Shown here piece by piece: positions 25,849-43,333 of a stretch of 64,000 nucleotides of DNA; within the stretch, counting starts at the first letter, position 1; each line of letters begins with the position of its first letter. The notes under the pieces are model-generated. The model worked only from the letters and a program-made list of their open reading frames with translations. It did no database searches and had not been told where the DNA came from. Origin of the DNA: an uncultured Naasia sp. (GTDB lineage Bacteria; Actinomycetota; Actinomycetes; Actinomycetales; Microbacteriaceae); NCBI GenBank assembly GCA_913778905.1, contig CAJYYA010000010.1, forward strand, positions 248,001-312,000. Direction: 5' to 3'. Both the position numbers and the translations under genes were made by a program.

Positions 25849-26406
25849 GTGAAAGCGTTCAGTCCCTTGGTCCTTCCCGCCGTAGCTATCGCAACCTGTT
25901 TGTCTCTGTCAGGGTGCGTCGATTCGGCCCCCGAGGTTGTGCGGGAACGGTCCACTCCGCAGGAGGCCTCGTCCGCTCCACTGGAGATGAAGGAAGCAGA
26001 CGTTATTGCGGCCGCCGTGCCCGTCTTCATTCAGTACATCGGCGCAGTCGTCGAGGTCGGCTCCGACCACAGCATCGATGCTTCGGTCCTACGCCCGTAT
26101 GCAAGCGATTCCGAAATCGAGGAAGTACGCGGCGTCCAGGACCGTTTGAAAGCCCGCGGGCAGCGAATGAACGGTCTGGTGTTAGTCGAGAGGTCGGTCC
26201 TGCAGGACATGTCCCCAGAAACCGGCACATTCACCCTTTTGATATGTGAAGACCTTTCGAACCTCCGAATTCTCGACGGTGAGGGCCTGGATGTCACTCC
26301 CTCATCACGCTCTTCGTCCTCGACCGTGCAGGTCTCGTTCGAGGGCTGGCCTGACAATCTGCGCATCGACAGGAATATCAAGTGGACCGGCGCAAGCGCC
26401 TGCTGA
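25849..26406 (+). CDS. Small lipoprotein (cassette L, copy 1)
   Basis: Lipobox LSGC; ICEDLSNLRILDGEGLDVTP; C-terminal Cys; paralogous to 41997..42545. Confidence 0.85.
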   Translation: MKAFSPLVLPAVAIATCLSLSGCVDSAPEVVRERSTPQEASSAPLEMKEADVIAAAVPVFIQYIGAVVEVGSDHSIDASVLRPYASDSEIEEVRGVQDRLKARGQRMNGLVLVERSVLQDMSPETGTFTLLICEDLSNLRILDGEGLDVTPSSRSSSSTVQVSFEGWPDNLRIDRNIKWTGASAC

Positions 26407-27179
26407 CCATCGTGGGCCTCGTCGTCCTCCTGGGCTGCGTGGTCACGGGAGGCGAGGCAGCCGCGGCCAACACCGCTGGCTGCGGTGGAGCCAGCGATCT
26501 AAGCGGGGAGTGCTCGACGGGCGCCATAACGGGCGGGGGCGCAAGCGTCGGTGCGCACTCGGACGGATCGGAAACAAACTCACCGGATTGGGTGCCGCCG
26601 GAGGGCTGGTTCAAGTGCAACGGCAGCTGGTGGCCGCCCAAGGATGCGGCTTTCTGGAAGCCGATGTGCCGCGACGAAATCACCGTCACCGGCCCGCCCA
26701 CGCCTTCCATGTCCGACGTCCGCGAGTTCTATCCCGCCTCGACCACGATCAGCTCGGAACCCCAAGGGTGGGCGCTCAAAGGCCGACCATTCAATCTCGT
26801 TGCCGACACCACCCCGATTACCCGAAGCGGAACTGTCCTCGGACTGCCCACCCAGGTCACCTTCACACCGACCCGGTGGAACTGGGACTACGGGGACGGC
26901 ACTACCCAGGCCACGGATACCGGAGGGATTTCCTGGGCCGCATCGGGCCGCAAACGCTTCACGACCACGCCGACCAGTCACACCTACACGACCAGGGGAG
27001 ACTTCACCGTCTCCCTCAGCGTCGACTACAAGGTGACCTATCAATTCGGCAACAACCCCTGGCGCCCCATCGACGGAACCCTCACCATCCCCGCCGGATC
27101 CATGCCTGTCCGCGTCGTCGTCGGCTCCACCGTCCTGACCACCGGCCCCTGCACGAGCACCTCCGCATCGACCTGCTGA
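26382..27179 (+). CDS. Secreted PKD-domain-like protein (cassette P, copy 1)
   Basis: GTG start inside the lipoprotein gene; signal peptide; TRWNWDYGDGTT...TTPTSHTYTTRGDFTVSLSVDY; ends C-TSTSAST-C. Confidence 0.85.
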   Translation: MDRRKRLLTIVGLVVLLGCVVTGGEAAAANTAGCGGASDLSGECSTGAITGGGASVGAHSDGSETNSPDWVPPEGWFKCNGSWWPPKDAAFWKPMCRDEITVTGPPTPSMSDVREFYPASTTISSEPQGWALKGRPFNLVADTTPITRSGTVLGLPTQVTFTPTRWNWDYGDGTTQATDTGGISWAASGRKRFTTTPTSHTYTTRGDFTVSLSVDYKVTYQFGNNPWRPIDGTLTIPAGSMPVRVVVGSTVLTTGPCTSTSASTC

Positions 27180-27183
27180 GGCT

Positions 27184-27492
27184 GTGCCGGCCGACAATGC
27201 CGGTCGCTGTGTTCGCCTTCGTCCATCTTGGAAAGAATCGGCACTACAAGAAGCCCTGCGCCTCACGCCGGGGGATCGAATCGTGCTGACGGGGGAGATG
27301 AGCAGGCCCCGCGACGAGTGGATCGGCGACCTCGCCGCTCGAGGACTGGCGGTCTGGCCCGGCGTCACCAAGAAAGTGCGCCTCGTCGTCGCAGCGGACC
27401 CCGACTCCCAGTCGGGCAAAGCTCGCAAAGCACGGGACTACGACATCGCCATCGTCGACGAAGCAGGGCTCATTTCACTGCTGGCGCGGTGA
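27184..27492 (+). pseudogene. Isolated BRCT domain, probable C-terminal remnant of a DnaQ-like exonuclease
   Basis: LRLTPGDRIVLTGEMSRPRDEWIGDLAARGLAVWPGVTKKVRLVVAADPDSQSGKARKARDYDIAIVDEAGL; no exonuclease domain upstream. Confidence 0.6.
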
Positions 27493-27545: not shown

Positions 27546-27575
27546 TGTGCTGATCAAAATCGAAGGATCAGCACA
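27546..27575. terminator. Inverted repeat TGTGCTGATC-aaaatcgaag-GATCAGCACA
   Basis: Perfect 10-bp arms, overlaps stop codon of the minus-strand lipoprotein gene. Confidence 0.6.
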
Positions 27576-28185
27576 TATCCAACTCGGGGTACCGCTGGTA
27601 CCCCGCGACCTTCGGTGCGTCCGGCAGACCGGTGATGATGACGTCGGACTCGAAGCGGACGGGACGTCCCGGGTTGGTGAGGTCGTTGCCCTGCGCATCA
27701 AGAAGACGGACATCGCTCTGGTCTTCGCAGACGAAGGCCCGAAGAAAGCCCGTCTCCGGATCCCACACCTCGACATCGATTCCGACCACCCGCGAGGCGC
27801 CGGTGGTGTGCTCTCCATTCGGGAAGAGCAGCCCGTCGTCCGCCTTCATGCTGGCGAGGAGATCGCCCGCGGTGTAGGGCTCGAGCTCAGAGACCTCATA
27901 TGTCCCTCGGTTCATCGCGGCCGAGTAGATGCCGAGCCAGTGCTCGAACGTTCCGCGCGCGGAGTCGACGATTTCGGTGCTGGGCTCTTCTACCGCGGTG
28001 ATCGGTATCTTCCGCGACTCTCCAGTGTCTAGGTTGACGATGGTTCCGCCACCGCGGGTCTTCAGCGGAGCCGGTGTCGACGGCGCATGCGCCACGACCG
28101 AGCCGGGCGAGATCAGAGAGCAGGACGACAGCAGGGCAATGGAGAGAAGAGCGGCGACGCAGAGCGCGGTCTTGGGGAGATTCAT
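27568..28185 (-). CDS. Small lipoprotein, orphan paralogue of cassette L
   Basis: Lipobox LSSC; VCEDQSDVRLLDAQGNDLTNPGR; C-terminal Cys. Confidence 0.8.
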   Translation of the reverse strand: MNLPKTALCVAALLSIALLSSCSLISPGSVVAHAPSTPAPLKTRGGGTIVNLDTGESRKIPITAVEEPSTEIVDSARGTFEHWLGIYSAAMNRGTYEVSELEPYTAGDLLASMKADDGLLFPNGEHTTGASRVVGIDVEVWDPETGFLRAFVCEDQSDVRLLDAQGNDLTNPGRPVRFESDVIITGLPDAPKVAGYQRYPELDMC

Positions 28186-41996: not shown

Positions 41997-42545
41997 ATGA
42001 ATATCTTCAGGTGGACGGCCTCCGTTGTGATCGCTTCCTGTGCACTGATGACAATCGGCTGTGCCCCAGGAGAAACAGCCAGCCTCAGCGGACCAATTTC
42101 TAGCACCCCGAATCCCGAACCGACGGAACCGACTGACGCCGACCTGATCTCGAGCGCCTCGAAGCTTCTCGAGGAGTACGGGCACCTCCTCTCTGACGTG
42201 GCCTCCGACCCTGCTCGGGATTCGTCGAAGCTTCATACCCTTCTGACGAAGAATGCCTTCCAAGTCATCGATAGCGACCTCCAGGAGATGTGGGCAGACG
42301 GCCGATACTTCAGCGGCTATCCCTCCTACACGAGCCTGCAGCTGATTCAACGATCACTCGACGGCGATGACTTCCAGGTCCTCGTGTGCAAAGATCTGTC
42401 GGCTGTGAGGGCCTTCCGCGCTGGGGCCGACATCACCCCGGTATCACGGGACAACATCCTCCCCATGGATATGGGGATAGTCCGAGAGCCCGAAGGTCTG
42501 AAGATAGACCGGACGGAAGACTGGGGCGGGCAAGACCCGTGTTGA
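41997..42545 (+). CDS. Small lipoprotein (cassette L, copy 2)
   Basis: Lipobox TIGC; VCKDLSAVRAFRAGADITPVSR; C-terminal Cys. Confidence 0.85.
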   Translation: MNIFRWTASVVIASCALMTIGCAPGETASLSGPISSTPNPEPTEPTDADLISSASKLLEEYGHLLSDVASDPARDSSKLHTLLTKNAFQVIDSDLQEMWADGRYFSGYPSYTSLQLIQRSLDGDDFQVLVCKDLSAVRAFRAGADITPVSRDNILPMDMGIVREPEGLKIDRTEDWGGQDPC

Positions 42546-43333
42546 AGAAGCGGAGCAAACTGGCGGCGACATTCGCGTTGACTCTCCTCCTTGGCTTCAT
42601 GAGTGTCACCTCGGCTTCCCAAGCCACAGCTTCTTCAGGCACCAGTGACATCGACGGAGCTTTCAGAGAAGGAACGGCGGAGTTGACCGTCCATCTGAGA
42701 CCACATGCGGAAGAGGGGACCGCTTTCGACAGTGGGGATCAAGCTGCCACCGTGCCGGAAGGGTTCTATCGGTGCCAGCTGACTGGCGAGATACTGCCGC
42801 TGCGGATCTGGTGGAAGTGCCCTCTCGCGGTTGGCGACACAATGACGGTCACCCAACCGACCATCTCGGACCTGGCGTCGTTCAAGCCGCAGACGCCGAC
42901 GATCGCGGGGGAGCCGGACGGGTGGGCGCTCAAGGGACGTCCCGCGAACTTCATCGCTCCCGTCGATGCGCACGTCGTCGCCGGAACTCTGCTCGGCCGC
43001 CCCGCCGACGTCCGCTTCACCCCGGTGACCTGGCACTGGAATTTCGGCGACGGCTCCACCGCCACCTCGTCGAGCGGCGGTGACACCTGGGAGCACCTCG
43101 GCATGCCGCGCTTCTCGACCACCCCCACCAGTCACGTCTACCGCGAGCGAAGCAGATACACCGTCTCGCTCGGCATCGAGTACCGCGCCGACTACCGCTA
43201 CGACGGCGGCGACTGGAACCCGATCGAGGGCACCCTCACGGTCCCCGTCGGATCAGAGCCGGTCCGGGTCTTCGTCGGATCGACCGTCCTCACCGCCCGC
43301 GGCTGCGATGGACGAGACGCCGCGTCCTGCTGA
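42539..43333 (+). CDS. Secreted PKD-domain-like protein (cassette P, copy 2)
   Basis: GTG start overlaps the lipoprotein stop by 7 nt; TWHWNFGDGST...TTPTSHVYRERSRYTVSLGIEY; ends C-DGRDAAS-C; track ORF start 42386 is probably too early. Confidence 0.82.
   Translation: MLKKRSKLAATFALTLLLGFMSVTSASQATASSGTSDIDGAFREGTAELTVHLRPHAEEGTAFDSGDQAATVPEGFYRCQLTGEILPLRIWWKCPLAVGDTMTVTQPTISDLASFKPQTPTIAGEPDGWALKGRPANFIAPVDAHVVAGTLLGRPADVRFTPVTWHWNFGDGSTATSSSGGDTWEHLGMPRFSTTPTSHVYRERSRYTVSLGIEYRADYRYDGGDWNPIEGTLTVPVGSEPVRVFVGSTVLTARGCDGRDAASC

Follow-up and report, generated by a model that had tools for sequence, protein, structure and literature searches.

A paired lipoprotein and PKD-domain cassette of actinobacteria with a hypervariable core between constant ends

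The LIP-PKD cassette, in which a gene for a predicted lipoprotein (LIP) overlaps a gene for a putative secreted protein with a PKD-like domain (PKD), has a hypervariable core, centred on LIP, between constant ends that are formed by the promoter and signal peptide on the left and the PKD domain on the right. The diversity of LIP is due to the exchange of old alleles by recombination, not to rapid point mutation. I propose, at somewhat less than an even chance, that the two genes encode a cell-surface module in which the part conferring specificity can be swapped, its diversity being kept by allele-specific conflict. A literature search found no paper describing the module, which agrees, as far as the literature could be searched, with the claim of a first-pass annotation that this is not a described system.

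The window, a stretch of 64,000 nucleotides from an uncultured Naasia sp., contains two cassettes and a third, solo LIP gene (Table 1). The first-pass annotation had read copy 1 as a lipoprotein gene overlapping the gene of a protein with a PKD-like module and had seen the arrangement recur as copy 2. ORF coordinates bear out the 25-nt overlap and the recurrence, and PF00801 (PKD) scores 27.5 and 30.4 bits in the two copies, above the Pfam cut-off of 23.5. The C-x7-C tail of PKD with its terminal Cys, and the Cys that ends LIP, are likewise present in the sequence as described. LIP copy 1 terminates in TGASAC and has conserved Cys133 and Cys185, and the GTG start of its partner is assembled from the G of AAG and the first two letters of the Trp codon TGG. 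PKD copy 2 most likely starts at GTG 42539, overlapping LIP by 7 nt, or at TTG 42542 (4 nt). The solo gene, which the first-pass annotation had missed, resembles LIP at E 2e-8 and scores 103 bits against the LIP profile. None of the window LIPs matched any Pfam family, DUF576 and DUF6318 included, and the PKD genes in this genome number two in all. As paralogues, copies 1 and 2 are old, with amino acid identities of 31% in LIP, 30% in the N-terminal part of PKD and 50% in its C-terminal part; they are so old that by themselves they would not have shown the constant-variable-constant pattern. Directly 3' of PKD copy 1, an ORF at 27184-27492 (+) consists of a BRCT domain alone, which resembles the C-terminus of DEDDh exonucleases or LigA and is possibly the remnant of a larger gene.

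Table 1. Features of the LIP-PKD cassettes and the solo LIP gene in the window
Feature	Position	Strand	Description
LIP copy 1 (lipoprotein gene)	25849..26406	+	ORF, GTG start, 185 aa
LIP copy 1 layout			lipobox LSGC in residues 1-23; linker 24-48; predicted NTF2-like domain 49-185 (nt 25993-26403)
LIP/PKD copy 1 overlap	26382..26406	+	25 nt, out of frame, LIP stop against PKD start
PKD copy 1	26382..27179	+	ORF, GTG start, 265 aa, WNWDYGDG
PKD copy 1 head			Sec signal peptide; variable; Cys34/Cys44 hairpin; G/P/S-rich linker (to about residue 105)
PKD copy 1 constant part	about 26690-27176	+	PKD domain and C-x7-C tail, last residue Cys
Solo LIP paralogue	27568..28185	-	205 aa, ends ...LDMC, no PKD partner, beside copy 1
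LIP copy 2	41997..42545	+	182 aa; E 4.1e-12
PKD copy 2	42539..43333	+	E 2.5e-55, 41% identity

The LIP-PKD pair is ancient and dedicated, far beyond chance. From 150 drawn genomes of the window's family, about 100 loci were taken and profiles were built from them; 104 of the 150 genomes have a relative of PKD. The first-pass annotation had proposed a dedicated pair, a claim that a PKD family living mostly without a lipoprotein neighbour would have overturned. Instead, a profile search of the family shows 106 of 114 PKD ORFs to be preceded immediately by a LIP homologue, and 107 of the 129 PKD genes listed outside it directly follow a lipoprotein gene (DUF6318 or window-type LIP) on their own strand. 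Outside the family this slot is mostly filled by Pfam DUF6318 (PF19843), although 40 of the 136 DUF6318 genes listed are orphans. Under the chosen start codons, 103 of the 106 family pairs overlap by at least 1 nt, most commonly by 25 nt (39 of 106). In the window (26379-26406) and in the family, the modal overlap fixes two frames at once, so that LIP ends in W-x-G-x-x-x-C and PKD starts M-[GDV]-R, with the Trp codon TGG providing the start codon. PF00801 matches 83 of 102 family PKD proteins at E<=0.01. The PKD protein was found in 151 of 198 genomes of the order and in 172 of 198 genomes of genus g85; at class level 147 of 297 genomes have a match, the weak ones of which may be other PKD proteins.

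The eight family PKD ORFs that lack LIP comprise two fragments, two genes cut by transposase genes (L080 and L109, both truncated at the variable head) and four genuine cases, L099 and L128 of genus g48 among them. Solo LIPs and LIP arrays outnumber solo PKDs. At L048 (G043:C1:901686-910438), five tandem solo LIPs precede a LIP-PKD cassette with an HtrA gene adjoining, and the same genome has about seven tandem cassettes at L047. In G203 (L217, L221) a single PKD gene is accompanied by about ten genes for DUF6318 lipoproteins, most of them orphans in tandem. A mirror-tree comparison of paralogues gives r 0.65, which within-genome shuffles reach in 3 of 2000 trials; this indicates that cassettes mostly duplicate as units and is silent on binding.

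Paralogous cassettes within one genome reveal the core most directly. Over the final ~500-600 bp of PKD their nucleotide identity is 95-100%, and it is often as high in the first ~50-100 bp of the cassette, yet their LIP proteins are only 28-55% identical. The DNA of the core has sharp edges, within which identity is about 35-50%, the level of unrelated flanks. Across the order, with rows G461 and G470 excluded as alignment artefacts, 36 of 40 pairs whose PKD domains are at least 85% identical in nucleotides have a 300-nt core at or below 55% (16 genomes, 7 families). Likewise, among 41 cassette pairs whose PKD domains are 85-99.9% identical in protein, the median LIP identity is 40% (range 25-71). 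Every core includes the C-terminal portion of LIP, and most extend into the head of PKD. The head can, however, stay constant while LIP changes, as in L170 and L173 (LIP 43%, head 86%), so the polymorphism resides mainly in LIP, whose alleles are not tied strictly to the head. A constant region is joined to a variable one, which recombination exchanges along with the adjacent gene, as in polymorphic toxin/immunity systems.

Orthologous loci tell the same story at species level. One genome per species was available, and polymorphism within species is thus judged from close species. At syntenic loci of congeneric species, neighbouring proteins are 68-93% identical, LIP 32-53%, the PKD head 30-60% and the PKD domain 53-85%; in genus g85, both flanks keep 80-100% DNA identity around an unrelated core. 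At the rpsA-LIP-PKD-exonuclease locus of close species, dS is 0.03-0.17 for rpsA, 0.31-0.60 for the exonuclease gene and 0.41-0.73 for the PKD domain, against 1.57 to saturated for LIP. With omega (dN/dS) of about 0.1-0.4, and about 0.2-0.4 at this locus, and with saturated dS, the LIPs are old functional alleles under purifying selection, not genes in decay. The LIP tree has two allele lineages (support 100/99) that cut across species. Furthermore, the exonuclease tree joins L170 and L173 (support 100/100), a grouping that the LIP tree rejects (AU p 6.7e-5, a value to be read in the knowledge that the rows were picked after the identities had been seen).

Other readings were considered and rejected. 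Positive selection by point mutation does not explain the diversity of LIP, omega being 0.1-0.3 with dS saturated. Gene conversion of the PKD domain alone is ruled out at orthologous loci because the genes on both sides keep species-level dS. LIP and the PKD head do not behave as a matched specificity pair: their partial correlation given the PKD domain is 0.09, and L170 and L173 contradict the idea. Because head variation and LIP alleles do not go together, LIP and PKD need not be paired allele by allele, which counts against the proposed module.

LIP is a predicted bacterial lipoprotein with an N-terminal signal peptide and a lipobox Cys, the latter present in 99% of the 101 aligned members. 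Its mature domain is, in the AlphaFold2 (AF2) model of copy 1, a predicted NTF2-like fold, with helices on a curved antiparallel sheet (mean pLDDT 87.7; >=95 over residues 51-180 and about 98 in the domain), and Foldseek matches it to Tim44, PARC6 and VirB8-type folds at E about 1e-5 to 1e-3. DUF6318 is a predicted distant relative of LIP, as suggested by a profile comparison spanning the entire domain (hhalign probability 84.7, E 6.7e-6), and occupies the same slot upstream of PKD in other families. It differs in that the DUF6318 model picks up neither the window LIPs nor any other protein of the window's genome. The search found no paper on DUF6318, a family named but uncharacterised. The PKD protein model has a mean pLDDT of 81.4 and is low in the head, a G/P/S-rich stretch of about 90 aa. 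Its PKD fold resembles that of the Clostridium collagenases ColG and ColH (Foldseek probability 1.00, TM to target 0.60-0.71), but the similarity is to the PKD domain only, and the protein is without a protease or collagen-binding domain.

The cysteines bear on a suggestion of the first-pass annotation that did not hold up, namely a surface complex covalently linked by disulfides between C-terminal cysteines. The C-terminal Cys of LIP is invariant (101 of 101), and Cys257 and Cys265 of PKD occur together in 95 of 102 proteins, as such a link would lead one to expect. However, LIP has exactly two cysteines after the lipid-modified one in all 101 members, and the number in PKD is even in 99 of 102, cysteines usually being lost or kept in pairs. 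Intramolecular disulfides would account for all of these, with no unpaired Cys left to cross-link. Internal disulfides in both proteins are thus the parsimonious reading of the sequences, and a covalent link is very improbable.

The geometry of the cassette raises the possibility of a polymorphic effector/immunity pair in reverse, in which the PKD head would be a secreted antibacterial peptide, the PKD domain its constant delivery part, and LIP a membrane-anchored immunity protein encoded first. The variable parts of the two genes adjoin each other, with the constant part lying distally, a mirror image of the geometry of polymorphic toxins. Orphan LIPs, which would be spare immunity genes, are common whereas intact orphan PKDs are rare, and L048 has an array of six LIPs before its PKD. 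A close parallel with a reverse domain arrangement is TslA of Staphylococcus, a lipase toxin secreted by the type VII secretion system (T7SS) and neutralised by TilA, a lipoprotein (DUF576 tandem lipoprotein) whose gene has tandem homologues upstream (PMC10730906). As in the LIP-PKD cassette, a lipoprotein gene lies directly upstream of the gene for a secreted protein with an N-terminal variable part, tandem lipoprotein paralogues occur upstream, and the membrane-anchored partner is outside. The differences are in the parts: TslA is T7SS-secreted and has a lipase domain, whereas PKD has a Sec signal peptide and a low-complexity head in place of a lipase-type N-terminal domain, and LIP has no DUF576 match and a predicted NTF2-like fold. 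The T7SS immunity genes esaG and tipC offer a second parallel, since their tandem paralogues recombine via conserved 5' and 3' blocks around a variable middle (PMC9484751). Conserved ends, variable middle and recombination are alike; in the LIP-PKD cassette, however, the conserved 3' block sits in the second gene (PKD), and the cassette occupies fixed chromosomal loci across an order. TslA/TilA and these recombining immunity arrays are the nearest known layouts. Yet Pfam finds no recognisable toxin domain in 102 PKD proteins, the head is about 90 aa long, G/P/S-rich and of low model confidence, and no tracking is seen between its alleles and those of LIP. The missing toxin domains and the missing tracking argue against a simple effector/immunity pair, which on the sequences appears distinctly unlikely.

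The genomic setting suggests a different alternative. At about 38 loci, the gene order, with names read from sequence, is nitrilase, aminotransferase (opposite strand), LIP, PKD, HtrA-type serine protease and GT2 glycosyltransferase, and many genera keep the cassette at a single fixed position in the chromosome, adjoining the HtrA-type protease gene. This site also suits an envelope housekeeping role and so counts against the conflict reading: LIP and PKD might, for example, serve the neighbouring protease as client or cofactor, or act in cell-wall assembly, with a fast-evolving, weakly constrained lipoprotein. The purifying selection on LIP and the near-universal presence within genera are consistent with this. 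Fast evolution, however, can produce neither a saturated LIP dS next to genes with dS 0.03-0.6 nor the sharp edges of identity seen when paralogues are compared, and it leaves the conflict between the LIP tree and that of the neighbouring gene unexplained. Moreover, the window's genome keeps HtrA and the aminotransferase without a cassette between them (about 60 bp between ORFs; L220 3296-6300; G000:C12:250500-260500), both of its cassettes being located away from this site. A housekeeping pair is thus an unlikely explanation.

Genus g85 has the cassette flanked by rpsA on one side and a 5'-3' exonuclease gene on the other. A tRNA or other RNA gene was considered as the cause of the near-identical upstream stretch there; no tRNA was found, and the stretch is rpsA. 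The adjoining rpsA genes (L145, L170, L189 and L193) encode proteins 99-100% identical between species, and their low dS stands in species whose other genes show dS 0.3-0.6. Carriage by mobile elements was rejected: the cassette was not found in the phage collection, a pattern-limited scan of IMG/VR with single proteins as queries did not find LIP, and plasmids gave one partial match only. PADLOC anti-phage defence models gave no match at E<=0.1, and PHROGs models none pointing to defence, which counts against the conflict reading.

Old alleles swapped inside constant ends usually mark recognition in conflict, as in toxin/immunity systems, phage receptors and self-recognition. In the swappable surface module proposed here, the constant arms would allow homologous recombination of the cores. 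LIP would be the membrane-anchored subunit carrying specificity and may engage its secreted partner via the short, disulfide-stapled N-terminal hairpin of PKD, which in turn would present a constant domain outward; putative tethering of PKD by LIP is plausible. Diversity would then be kept by allele-specific conflict, most likely phage exclusion or immunity to competitors' envelope-acting factors, and extra solo LIP genes, as in the window, would broaden the repertoire. I infer both the predicted contact between LIP and PKD and the conflict role from sequence patterns. A bolder version, which I hold tentatively and consider rather unlikely, is an order-wide self/non-self or phage-exclusion locus at which the many old alleles of LIP would decide the phages or neighbours that are tolerated.

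For a lone surface lipoprotein, the nearest known job is that of exclusion lipoproteins such as Ltp of phage TP-J34, a prophage-borne superinfection-exclusion lipoprotein (PMC3952083). Ltp and LIP are both small lipoproteins sitting on the outside of a Gram-positive membrane, with exclusion as the role suggested for LIP too; Ltp differs in having no PKD partner, LIP is not found in phage collections, and the likeness is one without homology shown.

Nearly universal across a large actinobacterial order with environmental and host-associated members, the locus consists of two protein families that are both uncharacterised. The LIP family and DUF6318 now have a partner, a predicted structure and a role that can be tested, which would point work on phage-host interaction and competition in Microbacterium and its relatives at one small locus. 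The exceptions in genus g48 (L099 and L128), where PKD occurs without any LIP in the genome and next to what appears to be ribF, could tell what PKD does alone.
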